Below the pieces are notes generated by a model. That model had not been told where the DNA came from. It did not search any database and saw nothing but the letters and a program-made list of their open reading frames with translations. DNA of 64,000 bases from Amycolatopsis granulosa (GTDB lineage Bacteria; Actinomycetota; Actinomycetes; Mycobacteriales; Pseudonocardiaceae): NCBI RefSeq assembly GCF_011758745.1, contig NZ_JAANOV010000001.1, positions 2,604,001-2,668,000 on the forward strand, written 5' to 3'. A program made the translations under genes and the position numbers. Shown here piece after piece: positions 39,437 through 48,328 of this stretch (positions are counted from its first letter, which is position 1; every line of letters begins with the position of its first letter).

Positions 39437-40279
39437 CTAGGAAGCCTCGGAGGCCGCGCGCATGTTGCGGGTCTGTTCCGCGCGGGCCGCGAGCTCCTCG
39501 TCCGCGGGGTAGTCGACCCCGATCAGGGTCAGCCCGTGTGCCGGGGCCACCGCGCTGTCCCGCACTCCCCCGCTCAGCAGCTCGGCCGGCCAGGACACCG
39601 GCCGACGCCCGTCGCCCACCAAGAGCATGGCGCCGACCAGGCTGCGCACCATCGAGTGGCAGAAGGCATCGGCGGACACCGACGCCTCCACGACGTGCGT
39701 GCTGATTCGCCGCCAGGCGAACCGCTGCAACTCGCGGATCGTCGTGCCACCCGCGCGCTGCTTGCAGAACGCGGCGAAATCGCGCAGGCCCAGCAGCTTC
39801 TCCGACGCCTCGTTCATCGCGGTCAGCGACAGCGGTCGTCCCCACCCCAGCGTGTCGAAGCGGTGCAACGGGTCGACGCCCCACGGCGCGTCCGACACCC
39901 GGTACCGGTAGTGCCGCCGGATCGCGGAGAACCGGGCGTCGAATCCCGCCGGCGCCACCCGCGCGTCAAGCACCCGTACATCCCCCGGCAGGAACCGGTT
40001 CCACCGGTGCCGCATGCGCTCGAGATCGGGGATACCGCGGGCATCCACGGCCAGGCGTCCGGACGGCGCGGACAGCGGCACCACGTCCACGTGCACGACC
40101 TGCCCGGTGGCGTGCACCCCGGCATCCGTGCGCCCCGCCACGACGACCGGCTTCGGCACCGCGGCACCGGGCGGCTGCTTCGCGAGCGCGTCCTCGAGCA
40201 GGCCCTGGACCGTCCGGCGCCCCGGCTGCCGGGCCCAGCCCGAGAACGCCGTGCCTTCGTAGCTGACGTCCAGGCGCAG
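39437..40279 (-). CDS. truA: tRNA pseudouridine(38-40) synthase TruA, non-canonical start
   Basis: The catalytic Asp is in [41 protein letters not shown] and the upstream [17 protein letters not shown] and [12 protein letters not shown] segments identify TruA, which isomerises U38-40 of tRNA anticodon arms. The frame is open from a TGA at 40379-40381, but contains no ATG, GTG or TTG before the GTG at 40159, which would remove the conserved first 40 residues. I place the start at CTG 40279, giving 280 residues. CTG at 40345, overlapping the rplQ stop as CTGA, is an alternative that would resemble the longer mycobacterial N-terminus. Order rplQ-truA is conserved. Confidence 0.85.
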
Positions 40280-40282
40280 ACG

Positions 40283-40321
40283 AACGAGCCCGCCCTCCCC
40301 AGAGGGAGCAGCGGGCTCGTT
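40283..40321 (-). terminator. strong hairpin after rplQ, inside the truA open frame
   Basis: AACGAGCCCGC and GCGGGCTCGTT form a perfect 11-base stem, and inside it CTCCC and GGGAG pair again around TCTG. It lies 21 bases after the rplQ stop and directly before or within the truA start, so it probably attenuates rather than fully ends transcription. No T run follows. Confidence 0.7.
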
Positions 40322-40341
40322 GCCTGGACCGAACGCAGCCG

Positions 40342-40920
40342 TCAGGACTCGTCCTTCTTGTCCTCGGCCGGGGTCTCCTCAGCGGCACCCTCGGCCGGTT
40401 CGGCGGTCGCCTCGGTCGTGGCCGACACGGGCGCCTCGGCGTCCTGGTCGGTCACCTCCGCGGCGGTCTCCTCGGCCTTGCTCTCCTCAGCCGCGGGCGA
40501 CGCCTCGGCCGAGTCCTTGGCGAACTTGGTCCGGCGCGCCTTCTCGGCCTCCGAGGTGACGGTCTTCTCGGACACCAGCTCGATGACCGCCATCGGGGCG
40601 TTGTCGCCCTTGCGCGGCAGCGTCTTGGTGATCCGGGTGTAACCGCCCTCGCGGTCGGCGAAGAACGGGCCGATCTCGGCGATCAGCTTGTGAACCACGT
40701 CCTTGTCGCGGATCACACGCTGGATCTGCCGCCGGTTGTGCAGGTCACCGCGCTTCGCCTTGGTGATCAGCTTCTCGGCGAGCGGCCGCATCCGGCGGGC
40801 CTTGGCCTCGGTCGTGGTGATCTTGCCGTGCTCGAACAGCGACCTGGCGAGGTTCGCCAGCATCAGCCGCTCGTGGGCCGCGGATCCACCGAGACGGGGG
40901 CCCTTCGTGGGGGTGGGCAT
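40342..40920 (-). CDS. rplQ: 50S ribosomal protein L17
   Basis: A 192-residue L17. The core ([39 protein letters not shown]) covers the first 120 residues. The last 65 are an acidic Ala/Glu/Thr-rich tail, typical of actinobacterial L17 and likely disordered at the ribosome surface. GAGGAG precedes the ATG. It follows rpoA with two hairpins between. Confidence 0.98.
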
Positions 40921-40937
40921 TGCTTCTCCTCGTAAAT

Positions 40938-40991
40938 CCGGCCGCTTTCAGGCCGGCGCCCGCCCCGCACGCATCACCGAGCGGGGCGGGC
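40938..40991 (-). promoter_or_regulatory. two hairpins between rpoA and rplQ
   Basis: Read on the minus strand, GCCCGCCCCGC (40991-40981) pairs with GCGGGGCGGGC (40968-40958) around 12 bases. Then CCGGCC (40956-40951) pairs with GGCCGG (40943-40938), followed by ATTTACG. The second is terminator-like. As rplQ must still be expressed, they may be attenuators or mRNA processing/stability elements. Confidence 0.5.
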
Positions 40992-40999
40992 CGCCGTCC

Positions 41000-42067
41000 T
41001 TACAGCTGCTCCGTCTCTGCGTAGTCCTGGCCGTCGTCGTGGCCGTTGTCCGACAGACCGCCGACACCCTCGGCGGACCAGCTCTCGCCGCCCTCGTAGG
41101 ACGCGGCAGCCGCGGTCGGGTCGAACCCGGGCGGGCTGTCCTTCAGCGAGAGGCCGAGACCGACGAGCTTCATCTTGACCTCGTCGATCGACTTCGCACC
41201 GAAGTTGCGGATGTCGAGCAGGTCGGCCTCGCTGCGCGAGACCAGCTCGCCGACCGTGTGGATGCCCTCGCGCTTGAGGCAGTTGTACGACCGGACGGTC
41301 AGGTCCAGGTCCTCGATCGGCATCGCGTAGGCGGCGATGGTGTCCGCCTCCTGCGGCGACGGCCCGATCTCGATGCCCTCGGCGTCGACGTTGAGCTCCC
41401 GGGCCAGGCCGAACAGCTCGACCAGCGTCTTGCCGGCGGAGGCGACGGCGTCGCGCGGGGTGATCGACGGCTTGGTCTCGACGTCCAGAATCAGCTTGTC
41501 GAAGTCGGTGCGCTGCTCGACACGGGTCGCCTCGACCTTGTAGGTGACCTTCAGCACCGGCGAGTAGATCGAGTCGACCGGGATCCGGCCGATCTCGGCA
41601 CCCGCCTGCTTGTTCTGCTGAGCAGGCACGTAACCGCGGCCGCGCTCGACGACCAGTTCGATCTCCAGCTTGCCCTTGCCGTTCAGCGAGGCGATGTGCA
41701 GATCCTGGTTGTGCACGGTGACACCGGCGGGCGGGACGATGTCCGCCGCGGTGACCTCACCCGGGCCCTGCTTGCGCAGGTACATGGTGACCGGCTCGTC
41801 CTCCTCGGAGGAGACGACCAGTTCCTTGAGGTTCAGGATGATGTCGGTGACGTCTTCCTTCACCCCGGGGACCGTGGTGAACTCGTGCAGCACGCCGTCG
41901 ATGCGGATGCTGGTGACCGCCGCGCCCGGGATGGACGACAGCAGCGTGCGCCGCAGCGAGTTGCCGAGGGTGTACCCGAACCCGGGCTCCAGCGGCTCGA
42001 TGGTGAACCGGGACCGGGTCTCGTTGATCGGCTCCTCGCTGAGGGCCGGTCGCTGGGAAATCAGCAC
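41000..42067 (-). CDS. rpoA: DNA-directed RNA polymerase alpha subunit
   Basis: A 355-residue subunit. The N-terminal dimerisation domain ([40 protein letters not shown]) and the C-terminal domain ([39 protein letters not shown]) are complete, and a short acidic tail ends the protein. The alpha-CTD residues for UP-element and activator contact are present. GGAAAG lies before the ATG. It sits between rpsD and rplQ, the universal alpha-operon order. Confidence 0.98.
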
Positions 42068-42123
42068 TTTCTTCTCTTCCTTTCCTGCCGGCGCCCGCCA
42101 TATGACGCCGAAAGGGATGGCGA

Positions 42124-42153
42124 AGCGGCGGCGCGCGGGTGCGCGCCGCCGCT
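42124..42153 (-). promoter_or_regulatory. 13-base perfect hairpin between rpsD and rpoA
   Basis: AGCGGCGGCGCGC pairs completely with GCGCGCCGCCGCT around a four-base loop, starting six bases after the rpsD stop. TTCGCC follows. It is strong enough to be a partial terminator, and could set the ratio of ribosomal protein to rpoA mRNA. Confidence 0.6.
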
Positions 42154-42158
42154 GCCGA

Positions 42159-42764
42159 TCACTTCGAGTAGTACTCGACGATCAGCTGTTCCTGGACCGG
42201 AACGTCGATCTGCGCCCGCTCGGGGAGCTGGTGCACCAGGATGCGCAGGTTCGACGGCACGACCTGCAGCCAGCCGGGGATCGGCCGGTCGCCGAAGGAC
42301 TCCTTGGCGGCCACGAAGGGCAGCATCTGGAGCGACTTCGGCCGCACGTCGATGATGTCGAACTTCTCGACCTGGTAGCTGGGGATGGTCACCTTCACGC
42401 CGTTGACGGTGAAGTGACCGTGCGCCACCAGCTGACGCGCCTGACGGCGGGTCCGGGCCAGACCGGCCCGGTACACGACGTTGTCCAGGCGCGACTCGAG
42501 GATCTGCAGCAGGTTCTCACCGGTCTTGCCGGGGCGCCGCGCGGCCTCCTTGTAGTAGCGGCTGAACTGCCGCTCCAGGACACCGTAGGTGTAGCGCGCC
42601 TTCTGCTTCTCCTGCAGCTGGAGCAGGTACTCGGATTCCTTGACCCGGCCGCGGCCGTGCTGGCCGGGCGGGTACGGGCGGCGCTCGAAAGCCTGGTCGC
42701 CGCCGACGAGGTCAACCTTGAGGCGCCGCGAGATGCGAGTCGCGGGGCCGGTGTAGCGAGCCAT
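42159..42764 (-). CDS. rpsD: 30S ribosomal protein S4
   Basis: A 201-residue primary 16S-binding protein. [20 protein letters not shown] is followed by the S4 RNA-binding domain ([20 protein letters not shown], then [14 protein letters not shown]). It has no N-terminal four-Cys zinc site, the C-minus form. In many bacteria S4 autoregulates the alpha operon. GGAG lies before the ATG, 23 bases after rpsK. Confidence 0.98.
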
Positions 42765-42787
42765 GTGTTGTTACTCCTCCCCGTTCC

Positions 42788-43189
42788 TCAGACCCGGCGC
42801 CGCTTGGGCGGGCGGCAGCCGTTGTGAGGCTGCGGGGTCACGTCCTGGATGGTGCCGACCTCGAGACCGGCGGCCTGCAGCGAGCGGATCGCCGTCTCCC
42901 GGCCGGAACCCGGGCCCTTGACGAACACGTCGACCTTCTTCATCCCGTGCTCGGCGGCCTTGCGGGCCGCGTTCTCGGCGGCCATCTGGGCGGCGAACGG
43001 GGTGGACTTGCGGGAGCCCTTGAAGCCGACGTGGCCGGACGAGGCCCACGAGATCACGGCACCGTTCGGGTCGGTGATCGACACGATCGTGTTGTTGAAC
43101 GTGCTCTTGATGTGCGCGTGGCCGTGGGCCACGTTCTTCTTTTCCTTCCGCCGGACCTTCTTGGCCCCGGCGCGAGCCTTGGGTGGCAT
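42788..43189 (-). CDS. rpsK: 30S ribosomal protein S11
   Basis: The 133-residue platform protein. [40 protein letters not shown] and the C-terminal [18 protein letters not shown] are invariant features. AGGAG precedes the ATG by eight bases and lies just after the stop of the small gene at 43208. Confidence 0.98.
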
Positions 43190-43207
43190 GTGGGTGGTGT
43201 CTCCTGC

Positions 43208-43414
43208 CTAACGCGAGTTTTCGGTCTGTGCGGCGGCCGCGGCGGCCTCGCGGGCCTCCTGCTGGCCACGCCGGATCAGCGAACCGGCGTCGGTGTAGAG
43301 CTGGCGAAGCGCCATCGGGCGGGCATACAGGGCCTTCGGCGAGACGCACGAATTGTTGCGGCGGCGCATCTGCCCGGCGCCGGTCCGCACGACCTTCTTG
43401 CCCTGGACGCTCAC
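43208..43414 (-). CDS. small basic protein coupled to rpsM, unknown
   Basis: A 68-residue protein starting [20 protein letters not shown] and continuing [20 protein letters not shown], with an Ala/Glu-rich end ([14 protein letters not shown]). Its GTG lies in GTGA, overlapping the rpsM stop by four bases, and its TAG is followed directly by the rpsK ribosome binding site. Third positions are mostly G or C, as in true genes here. The N-terminal half is very basic (GKK, RRR), with one Cys, suggesting RNA or ribosome binding; the C-terminal half is likely a helix. I do not recognise it. It may be lineage-specific, filling the gap between rpsM and rpsK. Confidence 0.72.
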
Positions 43415-43791
43415 TTCTTGCCAGCCTTCTTCTTGCCGGCGACCGTCTTCTTGGGACCCTTGCGGGTGCGGGCGTTGGTCTTGGTCCGCTGACCGCGGAC
43501 GGGCAGACCGCGGCGCCACCGCAGGCCCTCGTAGCAGCCGATCTCGATCTTGCGACGGATGTCGGCCTGCACCTCGCGGCGGAGGTCACCCTCGACCTTG
43601 AAGTTCTCTTCGATGTGATCCCGCAGCTTGACGAGGTCGTCGTCGGTGAGGTCGCGGACCCGGGTGTCCGGGTTCAGCGACGTCGCCGCGATGAGCTCCT
43701 TCGAGCGGGTACGACCGATGCCGTAGATGTAGGTCAGCGCGATCTCCAACCGCTTCTCGCGGGGGAGGTCGACGCCGGCGAGTCGTGCCAT
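43411..43791 (-). CDS. rpsM: 30S ribosomal protein S13
   Basis: The 126-residue head protein. [34 protein letters not shown], and [20 protein letters not shown] are invariant. The start at 43791 follows AAGGAG; a longer frame upstream to 43878 has no support. 208 bases separate it from rpmJ; that gap shows no coding signal. The stop overlaps the small gene downstream. Confidence 0.98.
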
Positions 43792-43999
43792 GGCGCTTGA
43801 TGCTCCTTGTCGGTGTTCGTCGCTCCAGGTGTTCTCCCCGCCCGGTTCCGGGACCGACTCGCACGTCGTCCGGTGCACTTGCGTGCCCGGTGTCCCGGCC
43901 CCGGCCTGGAGTCCGGGGGTCGGCCGGTTCGCTCACGCGACCCGGCAGGTGCGGGGAGGGTGTTCAGCTGTCCGTCCGCTCTGCGTGTGCAGGCGGTGA

Positions 44000-44113
44000 T
44001 CAGCCCTGCCGCTGCTTGTGCCGCAGGTTCTCGCAGATCACCATGATCCGGCCGTGGCGGCGGATCACCTTGCACTTGTCGCAGATCTTCTTGACGCTCG
44101 GCTGGACCTTCAC
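44000..44113 (-). CDS. rpmJ: 50S ribosomal protein L36 (zinc-binding form)
   Basis: A 37-residue protein reading [20 protein letters not shown] and ending [10 protein letters not shown]. The CxxC, Cys27 and His32 zinc ligands are all present, the C-plus form. Start is GTG at 44113, preceded closely by AGGAG. It lies between infA and rpsM as in most actinobacteria. Confidence 0.97.
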
Positions 44114-44145
44114 GTCTCCTGCTTCCTTATGCGTTGCTCACCGTG

Positions 44146-44367
44146 TCACTTGTAGCGGTAGACAATGCGCCCGCGAGACAGGTCGTACGGCGACAACTCG
44201 ACGACAACCCGGTCCTCCGGGAGGATGCGGATGTAGTGCTGCCGCATCTTGCCGCTGATGTGCGCCAGGACCTTGTGACCGTTCTCCAACTCGACTCGGA
44301 ACATCGCGTTGGGGAGTGGCTCGATGACCCGACCCTCGACCTCGATGGCCCCGTCTTTCTTAGCCAT
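44146..44367 (-). CDS. infA: translation initiation factor IF-1
   Basis: A 73-residue OB-fold factor that binds the A site with IF-2 and IF-3. [40 protein letters not shown] and [20 protein letters not shown] match the family end to end. GGAGG lies before the ATG at 44367. The 237-base gap upstream to map has no supported gene. It probably holds a promoter (a TACACT element at 44506-44501 is possible). Confidence 0.98.
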
Positions 44368-44604
44368 GTCCTCCGCGTTTCGTGACTTGGTAGAGAGCGT
44401 TCGGCTTCTCTCGGTGTAAGCGCACACGCCACACCGACCCCTGAGAACCCGAACATTTACGAGCACGTTGGAACCGGCGTGATGAGTACGCCGACTAGAC
44501 AGTGTACGCAGCCGGTGTCGCACCTCGCGAGGCGGGGTGGGATGTGGTAGGCGATGTCACCCCTACGATACCCCGCGCCGCGGGCGACGGGAGGAAACCG
44601 CAGG

Positions 44605-45417
44605 TCAGGCGTCTTCGGGGAGGGTCAGGACGCGGGGGCCGTCCTCGGTCACCGCGACGGTGTGCTCCCAGTGGGCGGCACGGGAGCCGTCCGCGGTCAC
44701 GACGGTCCAGCCGTCCTCGAGCTCGACCGTCTCGGCGCTGCCGCCGGTCAGCATCGGCTCGATCGCCAGGGCCATGCCGGGCTTGAGCCGCGGCCCCTTG
44801 CCGGGCTTGCCGACGTTCGGCAGGAACGGCTCCATGTGCATCTCGGTGCCGATGCCGTGCCCGCCGTACTCGACGATCTGGCCGTAGTCGATGCCGTCGG
44901 CGGCGGCCGACGTCTCCGCCGAGGTCTGCACCGCGTGCGAGATGTCGGTGAGCCGTGCGCCGGGCACCGCGGCCTCGATACCGGCGAGCATCGCCGCGCG
45001 GGTGGCCGCGGAGAGGGCCTGGTCGGCCGGTGCGACGGTGCCGATCGCCAGGGTCACGGCGGAGTCGCCGTGCCAGCCGTCGAGGATGGCGCCGCAGTCC
45101 ACGGACAGCAGGTCCCCGTCGGCGAGCACCGTCGACGAGGCGGGGATGCCGTGCACGATCTGCTCGTTCACGGAGGCGCAAATGGAGGCCGGGAAGCCGT
45201 GGTAGCCCTTGAACGAGGGCACCGCCCCGGCCGCCCGGATGGTTTGCTCGGCGATCTCGTCGAGGTCGGCCGTGCTGACGCCGGGCTTGGCGGCCTCGGC
45301 GACCGCCGCGAGGGTGCGGGCCACCACGATCCCGGCGGCCCGCATCGCGTCGAGCTCGCCCGGCGTCTTGATCTCGATGCCGCGGTGGCGGCGGAGCACG
45401 GAAGGCACCAGGTTCAC
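44605..45417 (-). CDS. map: type I methionine aminopeptidase
   Basis: A 270-residue metalloprotease removing initiator Met. The metal-binding residues are seen in [19 protein letters not shown] (two Asp), [20 protein letters not shown] (His), and in MALAIEPML and [12 protein letters not shown] (Glu residues). GTG start overlaps the adk stop in GTGA. The order secY-adk-map is conserved. Confidence 0.97.
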
Positions 45418-45968
45418 GCGCGCGCGTCGAGGGCGTTCACGATCCGCGAGGACACCTCGTCGACCTCGCCGACGCCGTCCACCTTGACCAGGATGTCCCG
45501 GTAGTAGTCGAGCAGCGGGGCGGTCTCCGACTGGTAGACCTGCTGCCGCCGACGGATGACCTCTTCGGTGTCGTCCGTGCGGCCGCGGCCGAGCAGGCGC
45601 TCGACCAGCACGTCCTCCGGCACGTCCAGCTGGATCACGGCGTCGAGCTCGCTGCCCGACTCCGCCAGCATCTCGCCGAGGACCTCGGCCTGCTTGGCGT
45701 TGCGCGGGAATCCGTCCAGCAGGAAGCCGGCCTTGACGTCGGACTCGGCCAGGCGCTCGCGGACCATCTCGTTGGTGACGCTGTCCGGGACCAGCTCGCC
45801 GGAGTCGAGGTAGCGCTTCGCCTCCTCGCCCAGCGGCGTCTGCTCCGCGACGTGGGCGCGGAAGAGGTCACCGGTGGAGATGTGCGGGATGGAGAGCCGC
45901 TGCGACAGCGCTACCGCCTGAGTTCCCTTTCCTGCTCCGGGCGGGCCGACAAGAACCAGGCGCGTCAT
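45414..45968 (-). CDS. adk: adenylate kinase
   Basis: A 184-residue kinase interconverting AMP, ATP and [20 protein letters not shown] is the P loop, [12 protein letters not shown] binds AMP and [14 protein letters not shown] is the family signature. The LID is the short form ([13 protein letters not shown]), without the zinc Cys residues, as in mycobacteria. The ATG overlaps the secY stop (ATGA). Confidence 0.98.
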
Positions 45969-47272
45969 CGCAAGAACCCTTCGTAATTCCGCTGCATCAG
46001 CTGGCTTTCGATCTGCTTCACCGTGTCCAGTCCGACGCCGACCATGATCAGCACGGCGGTACCGCCGAACGGGAAGTTCTGGTTGTTGCCCTCCTGCGTG
46101 ATCGACAGGAAGAAGTTCGGCAGGATCGCGATGATGCCGAGGTAGAGCGACCCGGGGAAGGTGATCCGGCTGAGCACGAAGCTCAGGTATTCGGCGGTCG
46201 GCCTGCCGGGCCGGATGCCCGGGATGAAGCCGCCGAACTTCTTCATCTCCTCCGCGCGCTCGTCCACGTTGAACGTGATGGTGATGTAGAAGTACGTGAA
46301 GAAGATGATCAGCGCGAAGTACAACAGGATGTGCACCCAGTTGGACTGGCTGACCAGGTAGGTCTTCACGAACGCCTGCCAGCCCGACCCGCTCGTCGGG
46401 TCACCGAACAGCCGGCTGATCAGGTCGGGCAGGTACAGCAGGGACGAAGCGAAGATGACCGGGATGACGCCGGCCTGGTTCACCTTGATCGGCAGGTAGG
46501 TCGACGTGCCGCCGTACATCCGGCGGCCGATCATCCGCTTGGCGTACTGCACCGGGATCCGGCGCTGGCCCTGCTCGACGAAGATGACGCTGGCGATGAT
46601 CACCAGGCCGAACACGCACACCAGCGCGAACACGATGCCGCCCTGGCCGCTGAGGATGGCGCCACCCTCGGCGGGGATCCGGGCCGCGATGTTCAGGAAG
46701 ATCAGCACCGACATGCCGTTGCCGACGCCGCGCTCGGTGATGAGCTCGCCCAGCCACATCATGACCGCGGTACCCGCCGTCATCGTGACGACGATGAGCG
46801 CCAGCGAGAAGATGCTGTTGTCCGGGATGATCGCCTGCTCGCACGAGGGGAACAGCAGGCGGCGGTCGGCGAGCGCCACGACACCGGTCGCCTGCAGGAT
46901 CGCCAGCGCAATGGTGAGGTACCGGGTGTACTGCGTCAGCTTGTTCTGGCCGGCCTGGCCTTCCTTCTTCAGCTCCTCGAACCGCGGGATGACGACGGTG
47001 AGCAGCTGGATGATGATGCTGGCCGTGATGTACGGCATGATGCCGGTCGAGAAGATCGACAGCTGCAGGAGCGCCCCGCCGCTGAACAGGTTCAGCAGGG
47101 AGTAGATGCCCGACTGGTCGGCACCGGCCTGGCAAGCCTGCACATTGGGATAGGAGACCCCGGGCGCCGGCGTGACCGCACCGATCCGGTAGACGGCCAC
47201 GATCAACAGCGTGAACAGGATCTTCTTGCGCAGGTCCGGCGTGGCGAGAGCCGAGCGAAAGGCGCTGAGCAC
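45965..47272 (-). CDS. secY: Sec translocon subunit SecY
   Basis: A 435-residue membrane channel with ten helices. [20 protein letters not shown] (second helix and plug edge), [20 protein letters not shown] and [20 protein letters not shown] (cytoplasmic loops that contact SecA and ribosome) are conserved. The GTG at 47272, after GAGGAGG, gives the normal length; a frame extending to 47383 is leader. The stop overlaps adk. Confidence 0.98.
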
Positions 47273-47430
47273 GCGGGGGACCTCCTCGGCGTCGCCGGTG
47301 GGTGTCACCGGCGATCGGCTTGGCCGGCACAGGGGCCGGCAGGAACACCATGTCGCTGGCAAGCCAGCAGCGCTCCGGGGCACGAATTACCCCGCAGCGC
47401 GTTCGTCCGACTCTAACAGCCGGGCGTTGC
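47273..47430 (-). promoter_or_regulatory. structured leader and possible promoter of secY
   Basis: TAGAGT (47415-47410) is a possible -10. Between it and the start lie three successive inverted repeats: GCTGGC/GCCAGC (47355-47368), GCCGGC/GCCGGC (47323-47340) and CGCCGGTG/CACCGGCG (47293-47313). The last ends about five bases before the GAGGAGG ribosome binding site (47287-47281), so folding could affect access. The remaining stretch to 47566 shows nothing else. Confidence 0.45.
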
Positions 47431-47566
47431 AGGCCTGTGAGGTAGGCCGTGTTATGCGGTGGCACGGCCGGCGCTCCGGCCATCCGGAGCAGGACGGCTT
47501 CCCGCGGACGCGGGCGGTGGCTGAACGGCGCGAGCCGGTTCCGGCCGCGGAACACCGCCCCGGCGG

Positions 47567-48328
47567 CTACCGGTCGCCGTGGGGGAACCCGGGCGACGGC
47601 GGATAGTGCTGGTAGCCCCCGCCGCCGGGCGGCTGCGGGGCGCGCCGGTACGGGTCGGCCGTGGGCCACTGGGGCGGCGCGGCGAACGGCGGCTGGTGCC
47701 CCTGCGGCAACGGAACGCCGTACCGCGGAGTGGTCACGTCGGACCGGGGCGCGCGGCGGAGCGCGGCCAGGACCGCCGACGCGATGCTCGCCACCGCAGC
47801 TCCCCCGACGAGCCAGAACCCGAGCCCGAAGCTGTCCGCCGTCGCGAAACCACCGATCCCGGCGGCCGCGCCCGTCGGCCGGAAGCTCTCGTGCAGGCTG
47901 ACCCCCTGCAGGGCGATCCCCAGGGCCGTCGCCATCAGGAACGCCGATCCCACCGCCGTCAGCAGCGCCGCGGCGAACTTCCGGCCGGGCGGCGATGCCC
48001 GCCGCGCCGCCGCCAGCCCCACCACGGCCGCGACGAGCAGCAGCAGCCCGGCCACGGCCAGCGGGTACCCGTTCCGCACCGGGCTGCCGAACGTGCCGGC
48101 CGGCACACCGGGCCGGACCGTCTCCGCGGACAACCCCCACCCGGTCACCGCGATCGTCAACTGGGTCTCACCCTGGAACAGCAGCGAACCCTGGAACAAC
48201 GGCAGGAGCGAACCCGTCACCGCCGAGGCGGCGGCCAGCAGCGCCAGCACCGCCCCGGCGACCCGGCCGCCCTGGCGGCCGCTCGGCGCCGGTGGACGAA
48301 CCACGGGTGGCCCCGGAACCGACATCAT
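47567..48328 (-). CDS. four-helix membrane protein of unknown function
   Basis: A 253-residue protein with about four hydrophobic helices (RVAGAVLALLAAASAVTGSL, PLAVAGLLLLVAAVVGLAAA, FAAALLTAVGSAFLMATALG, GFWLVGGAAVASIASAVLAA) and a cytoplasmic Pro/Tyr/Gly-rich tail of about 60 residues with repeated PP and QP pairs. No enzymatic motif. It lies between the spc-operon terminator and secY, which are usually contiguous, so it is an insertion there. Not recognised as a family. Confidence 0.7.
   Translation of the reverse strand: MMSVPGPPVVRPPAPSGRQGGRVAGAVLALLAAASAVTGSLLPLFQGSLLFQGETQLTIAVTGWGLSAETVRPGVPAGTFGSPVRNGYPLAVAGLLLLVAAVVGLAAARRASPPGRKFAAALLTAVGSAFLMATALGIALQGVSLHESFRPTGAAAGIGGFATADSFGLGFWLVGGAAVASIASAVLAALRRAPRSDVTTPRYGVPLPQGHQPPFAAPPQWPTADPYRRAPQPPGGGGYQHYPPSPGFPHGDR

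Follow-up and report, generated by a model that had tools for sequence, protein, structure and literature searches.

A gene for a small basic protein between rpsM and rpsK in part of the Pseudonocardiaceae, with a possible role at the 30S subunit

The frame between rpsM and rpsK

The window analysed here is the whole stretch of 64,000 nucleotides from Amycolatopsis granulosa. On its minus strand lie, in this order, secY, adk, map, infA, rpmJ, rpsM, an extra frame, rpsK, rpsD, rpoA, rplQ and truA, as assigned by eye from translations and sequence. In its gene order, the S13-S11-S4 operon ranks with the most conserved in bacteria, and the two genes flanking the extra frame encode 30S proteins. 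The locus is composed as follows:

43208..43414, minus strand: extra gene between rpsM and rpsK, 68 codons, GTG start and TAG stop, recognised from homologues and dN/dS
43411..43414, minus strand: GTGA, start of the extra gene overlapping the rpsM stop codon, a putative site of termination-reinitiation coupling
43411..43791, minus strand: rpsM (uS13), upstream partner of the extra gene, with Trp at residue 92 (43516-43518), a position held by His in most relatives lacking the gene
42788..43189, minus strand: rpsK (uS11), downstream partner of the extra gene, from the open reading frames of the window and the reading of the locus

The extra gene shares the TGA of rpsM with its own GTG as GTGA, encodes 68 amino acids and is present as a single copy in its own genome. 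The original prediction took this overlapping frame to be a real gene, and it was right: homologues occupy the same place, and dN/dS lies below 1 within the sequence type of the window, as detailed below. The frame was also said to end just before the rpsK ribosome binding site and to carry G or C at third positions. Indeed, the rpsK ATG follows 18 nt past the TAG, with AGGAG in between, and GC3 is 0.88. The codon adaptation index of the extra gene was 0.64, whereas S13, S11, S4, RpoA and L17 reached 0.74-0.79 and five other frames of the same stretch only 0.19-0.44; the reference consisted of those five operon genes, which were themselves scored. The codon index of the extra gene is closer to those of its ribosomal protein neighbours than that of any other frame, yet below them.

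We compared the position of the gene across genomes with a synteny set of 114 loci, some of which are the same genome fetched from two collections, and read the rpsM-rpsK gap in 60 more loci, of which 41 belong to the family and 19 to other families of the order. S13 and S11 flanked the extra frame in 113 of the 114 loci, the exception (L025) being an unrelated weak match, and at every gene-bearing locus read the gene was located in the rpsM-rpsK gap. The length of this gap is bimodal within the family: 194-224 nt with the gene, and -1 to 57 nt in 29 gene-lacking loci. No frame of 20 codons or more was present in the gap at any of the 19 loci from other families, so that the earlier statement that the gap is normally empty is true for the relatives. 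As a separate observation, one genome (G205, locus L314) has an additional S13, followed by a 41-nt gap that lacks the gene; it resembles that of genus g3 and is probably a contamination of the assembly.

All 125 gene-bearing loci showed an open frame in the gap. The 93 distinct loci that we counted encode 59-69 amino acids; locus L096 was left out of this count owing to a mis-called frame and, read separately, was open as well. Taking the first start at or after the overlap, the start codon was GTG in 92 of the 93 and ATG in one. The overlap with the rpsM stop was 4 nt in 86 of them, while six had an offset of +3 and one the form TGATG. Even where the rpsM stop is placed further upstream, in six loci, the first start was the aligned GTG, and its retention there argues that it is the true start. 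A Shine-Dalgarno sequence with GGAG preceded rpsK in 93 of 93.

The members fall into two sequence types. The A-type includes the window, Amycolatopsis, Prauserella, Saccharomonospora and others; the B-type includes Actinokineospora and others, and its members are 39-45% identical to the protein of the window. Compared with the window gene, A-type members gave dN/dS values of 0.05-0.48, mostly 0.13-0.38 (for L003, dS was zero and no ratio was obtained). Over all 2183 pairs with dS of 0.1-1.5 the median was 0.33, and 76% of the pairs were below 0.5. Ratios between the A-type and the B-type were 0.56-1.21, which at such distance speak neither for nor against selection. Mean entropy at codon positions 1, 2 and 3 of 60 A-type members was 0.39, 0.35 and 0.95 bits. 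Judged from these substitution patterns, the extra frame is under purifying selection, and the predicted dN/dS clearly below 1 was recovered within the window's type. On the other hand, the strand of the extra gene showed no RNA structure beyond shuffled sequence (z +0.45, for the window's own sequence), and nothing matched Rfam up to E 1 across 40000-48000. The low dN/dS, the variation at third positions and the lack of a fold or Rfam signal together indicate a protein-coding frame, and we regard it as near certain that this is a real protein-coding gene.

Elsewhere in the operon, the rpmJ-rpsM spacer (43792-44000, minus strand) folds far better than shuffled sequence (z -3.71; none of 200 shuffles as good) and has no Rfam match. 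This spacer is a candidate autoregulatory leader of the alpha operon.

The protein of the window had no match in Pfam or in NCBIfam. Over 30 members, Pfam returned two matches, one member each (0.056 and 0.19), and PHROGs four, also one member each (0.083-0.68), none of them a convincing relative. An ABC transporter match in NCBIfam (0.0072; 4 of the 30 members) was taken as chance, as were the best matches in the PDB (0.96 for the single protein, 0.56 for the profile), whose chain set includes mycobacterial ribosomes. Homologues on plasmids and phages were absent at E 1. In a literature search, from which subscription journals were mostly missing, we came across neither an account of a gene at this position nor one of a signature protein for these genera. 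On the evidence searched, the family is new as a described family, and an earlier mention is possible. Its members presumably carry the automatic annotation 'hypothetical protein'.

Distribution and origin within the Pseudonocardiaceae

The original prediction expected a homologous frame at the same gap in related genomes, and such frames are indeed there. Among 61 near genomes, there were 26 matches at E 0.01 or better, of which 23 were at 5.3e-18 or better and three were weak; the 19 genomes of the genus among these 61 all had a homologue. Two of the weak matches (G026 and G029) are B-type members in the same gap, and the third (G059, the source of L025) is unrelated. A scan of named genomes yielded 74 loci in Amycolatopsis, Prauserella, Qaidamihabitans, Saccharomonospora, Thermocrispum, Haloechinothrix, Actinophytocola (MAGs), Actinokineospora and one MAG named Actinomycetes, with the closest match in A. 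thermalba. A profile search of 390 Pseudonocardiaceae genomes then gave 179 matches at E 0.05 or better. Strong matches (E 1.6e-8 or better) occurred in 169 of the 390 genomes and, counted from the match table, in 19 of 46 genera; G013 and G080 had second matches. The ten weak matches (E 9.7e-4 to 0.041) were set aside as chance; the gap of one of them, G410, was read and measures 36 nt without a gene. The remaining 221 of the 390 genomes had no strong match. Since this is more than half of the family genomes searched, ribosomes in general manage without the extra protein.

Beyond the family, the signal stopped. From 397 genomes drawn evenly across the order, we obtained 52 matches at E 0.01, comprising 45 strong ones, all in Pseudonocardiaceae, and seven weak ones (E 3.1e-4 to 0.0099), which were set aside as chance; three of the seven were fetched, and none lay beside S13 or S11. 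In a sample of 396 genomes of the phylum, the sole strong match was the window's own genome, and a second match (E 9.2e-4), which has an internal stop, was set aside as chance. No strong match outside the Pseudonocardiaceae was thus found among the 397 order and 396 phylum genomes, and, as far as searched, the extra gene appears confined to part of this family.

We built a tree from Map, IF1, S13, S11, S4, RpoA and L17 (61 tips, 1254 columns), with SecY and Adk excluded by the coverage filter. All 26 gene-bearing tips fell in a single clade (UFBoot 76), along with two gene-lacking tips. Strict monophyly of the gene bearers, with zero losses, stayed unrejected in an AU test (p-AU 0.20) run with 5000 replicates, where the program advises 10000. 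One gain followed by two losses fits the tree. The gene probably had a single origin inside the Pseudonocardiaceae, in an old spacer, to which the following feature points:

43201..43217, minus strand: last codons of the extra gene and rpsK Shine-Dalgarno (CTCGCGTTAGGCAGGAG), similar to the spacer in relatives that lack the gene

G237 and G034 are examples of genomes lacking the gene, and their spacer has the sequence TAAGACCTCGCGCTAGCTAGGAGA. The motif CTCGC was present in 16 of the 29 family spacers without the gene (dinucleotide shuffles: mean 2.5, maximum 7 in 300 shuffles) and in none of the 19 spacers from other families of the order. We took as tail the final 12 nt of the gene together with the spacer that follows. 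Of 48 distinct A-type tails, 37 contained CTCGC (mean 3.8 and maximum 10 in shuffles; 5.4 expected from same-length windows elsewhere in the frame), as did two of eight B-type tails (0.4-0.5 expected), and TCGCG stands there in three B-type tails. The shuffles overstate independence because the sequences are related. The likeliest course, as far as these comparisons suggest, is that some 165-190 bp entered after the rpsM stop and ahead of the older spacer, which would now provide the last codons, the stop and the rpsK Shine-Dalgarno.

The predicted protein and residue 92 of S13

Two regions of the product are distinguished by conservation and by prediction:

43268..43324, minus strand: conserved core, residues 31-49, from the alignment of 30 members (A4)
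43214..43315, minus strand: predicted C-terminal helix, residues 34-67, from the AlphaFold2 model and the hydrophobic moment

Ten residues are invariant in 30 of 30 diverse members (P33, A35, L36, R37, L39, Y40, D42, A43, G44 and R48), and R17, A31, R32 and I47 are kept in 90% or more of the 30 aligned members. The invariant core has the pattern P-x-A-L-R-x-L-Y-x-D-A-G and is located on the predicted C-terminal helix. By contrast, the N-terminal half and the C-terminal tail vary in length and sequence; the A-type consensus has RR flanked by variable positions and the ending E....ENSR. Net charge ranges from +6 to +13 with a median of +8 in the 93 distinct loci. The single Cys noted in the original prediction is found in 78 of these loci, and as a conserved feature it failed, with 11 loci having none and four having two. 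A metal site is unlikely, given that the Cys is not kept throughout.

For the A-type (44 sequences), AlphaFold2 predicted an N-terminus lacking regular structure, followed by a helix at 34-67, at a mean pLDDT of 66.3 and with block means of 79 and 86 within residues 41-60. A B-type member was predicted to have a low-confidence N-terminal hairpin, with a helix like that of the A-type at 33-58 (mean pLDDT 56.2). Confidence of these predictions is modest, and the A-type and B-type models differ at the N-terminus. The hydrophobic moment was 0.63-0.68 for 14-residue windows starting at residues 35-37, with a peak of 0.68 at 36-49, and one face of the predicted helix holds L36, L39, Y40, A43 and I47. 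A helix with such a conserved face suggests docking on some partner.

Among the 1254 columns of the tree alignment, column 92 of S13 (Trp with the gene, His without) ranked fourth in mutual information with presence of the gene. Over the 61 tips, Trp was present in 26 of 26 gene-bearing ones and in five of the 29 gene-lacking ones of the family. Counting genomes, 168 of 169 gene bearers have Trp (162 assigned by pattern and six read directly), with G029 as the exception, and so do 12 known genomes of several genera without the gene (nine by pattern, plus G413, G024 and G412). In the two genera with possible gene loss, the residue was His in four of four genomes. The His lies in the LRHRRG motif of S13, and its change to Trp requires three base changes, so a repeated change of this kind is odd. 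A Pagel-type test of residue 92 against the gene gave a likelihood ratio of 20.4 with a nominal p of 4e-4; other columns gave 17.0 (S13 95), 16.2 (S11 52) and 10.4 (RpoA 239). S11 52 tops the ranking by mutual information, yet looks like a plain clade marker. Moreover, the gap and residue 92 are physically linked, so that a single recombination could alter both together, and the unrejected strict monophyly of the gene bearers also speaks against the association. Because the p of 4e-4 is nominal among 1254 columns, the column was picked after the fact, exceptions occur, linkage is present and rival columns exist, we did not count residue 92 as evidence. As a pointer to a binding site it may serve as a lead only.

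Possible roles of the product

The product is small (59-69 aa), basic (+6 to +13), conserved and taxonomically restricted, with strong matches in 169 of 390 family genomes and in none of the sampled genomes outside the family. Its position in the operon, charge, size and conservation are most simply read as those of an accessory 30S protein or a 30S assembly companion. Our best explanation of the locus is a gene gained once and coupled to S13, whose product would serve the 30S subunit as an accessory component or assembly companion specific to the lineage, and we hold it with evenly divided confidence. Location in this operon alone is no proof of a ribosomal role, and for such a role, weighed on sequence evidence, the chances may be put at about even. 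We infer that the gene is translated and coupled and that its product binds the ribosome by way of the helix. Ribosomes ending S13 would re-initiate at the overlapping GTGA and yield a basic protein of 59-69 residues, and S11 would then be begun from its own Shine-Dalgarno. With re-initiation after S13 followed by the start of S11, the product would be made in step with both. Its basic N-terminal part may touch rRNA, and the face formed by L36, L39, Y40, A43 and I47 may dock on a ribosomal protein or an rRNA groove near S13 or S11. The stronger form, a true new 30S ribosomal protein that was born within one family, derived its final codons and stop codon from the former spacer and came to sit next to the Trp at S13 92, is a tentative possibility.

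Other readings have to be weighed against a role at the 30S subunit. The protein might act elsewhere, for example on RNA polymerase, and use the operon for high expression. rpoA is downstream in the operon and infA, map, adk and secY are upstream, as assigned by eye, and homology to any ribosomal family is lacking, all of which would suit this account. However, the gene is directly between S13 and S11 at every locus read and single in its own genome, and the product is small and basic like ribosome-associated proteins, so that we find action elsewhere rather unlikely. Alternatively, translation of the frame, and not its product, could tune the S13:S11 ratio through a relay or a pausing nascent peptide. 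A location between two ribosomal genes, in the gap at every locus read and with a 4-nt overlap in 86 of 93, is what such a regulatory frame would have. Arrest peptides act at their C-terminus, whereas conservation here is strongest in the middle of the protein (residues 31-48), and third positions vary within conserved columns. Nor does rpsK seem to depend on a relay, with its own Shine-Dalgarno in 93 of 93 distinct loci and with gene-lacking relatives that need none; RNA structure beyond chance (z +0.45) and an Rfam match are absent too. Taken together, a regulatory frame is clearly improbable. That the locus is a conserved RNA element, of which the open frame is a by-product, is hardly credible: the DNA beside the rpsK Shine-Dalgarno does partly resemble the older spacer, but variation falls mostly at third codon positions, length changes by whole codons (59-69 aa) with the frame open in 93 of 93 distinct loci, and neither the fold (z +0.45) nor Rfam (up to E 1) gives a signal. 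The restricted range and possible loss in two genera could also be expected of a decayed or selfish insertion without function. An insertion of this kind has scarcely any chance against an open frame in 125 of 125 gene-bearing loci, dN/dS of 0.05-0.48 within the window's type and the absence of a phage or plasmid homologue at E 1.

Kinship with a known family of the 30S platform was considered as well. bS18 is situated near S11 on the platform, and bS21 is a small, basic, helical 30S protein near S11. By eye, a 15-residue stretch of the extra protein resembles the bS18 stretch LLRKYISDRGKIRAR, and PF01165 (bS21) turned up in none of 46 genomes searched from the order, the window's own included. 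The missing bS21 would suit such a kinship and would suit the accessory 30S role as well. But hhalign gave a probability of 0.5% over 12 columns against bS18, for which the profile ran only from the DYK motif to the stop in 18 of 30 loci, and with no profile similarity kinship to bS18 was dropped. Of the 46 genomes searched, 45, including the window's own, have bS18 as a gene apart, and the extra family has no Pfam match to PF01084 or PF01165; it is like bS21 in being small, basic and helical by prediction, and differs in this lack of a match. A diverged bS18 or bS21 is accordingly very unlikely. As an aside, many genomes of the family have two bS18 genes, and a single one is found in the window's own genome and in some others.

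The proposed accessory or assembly role at the 30S subunit has a parallel in mycobacteria. bL37 and uL41, the latter later named bS22, are very small and basic proteins. These small mycobacterial ribosomal proteins were not identified until cryo-EM, and bL37 is reported only in actinobacteria (PMC5876184). The predicted product of the extra gene resembles them in being small, basic and lineage-restricted. It differs in that its gene belongs to the alpha operon, codes for 59-69 aa and, as far as searched, is restricted to part of one family, with no convincing PDB match.

The order of the S13-S11-S4 operon is so conserved that a gene gained inside it and selected across 19 genera is unusual. 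Amycolatopsis and its relatives are producers of important antibiotics. If the protein is on the ribosome, the ribosomes of the Amycolatopsis group would differ from the models in use, and the family would show the birth of a ribosomal protein in a datable lineage, with gene-lacking sisters for comparison.
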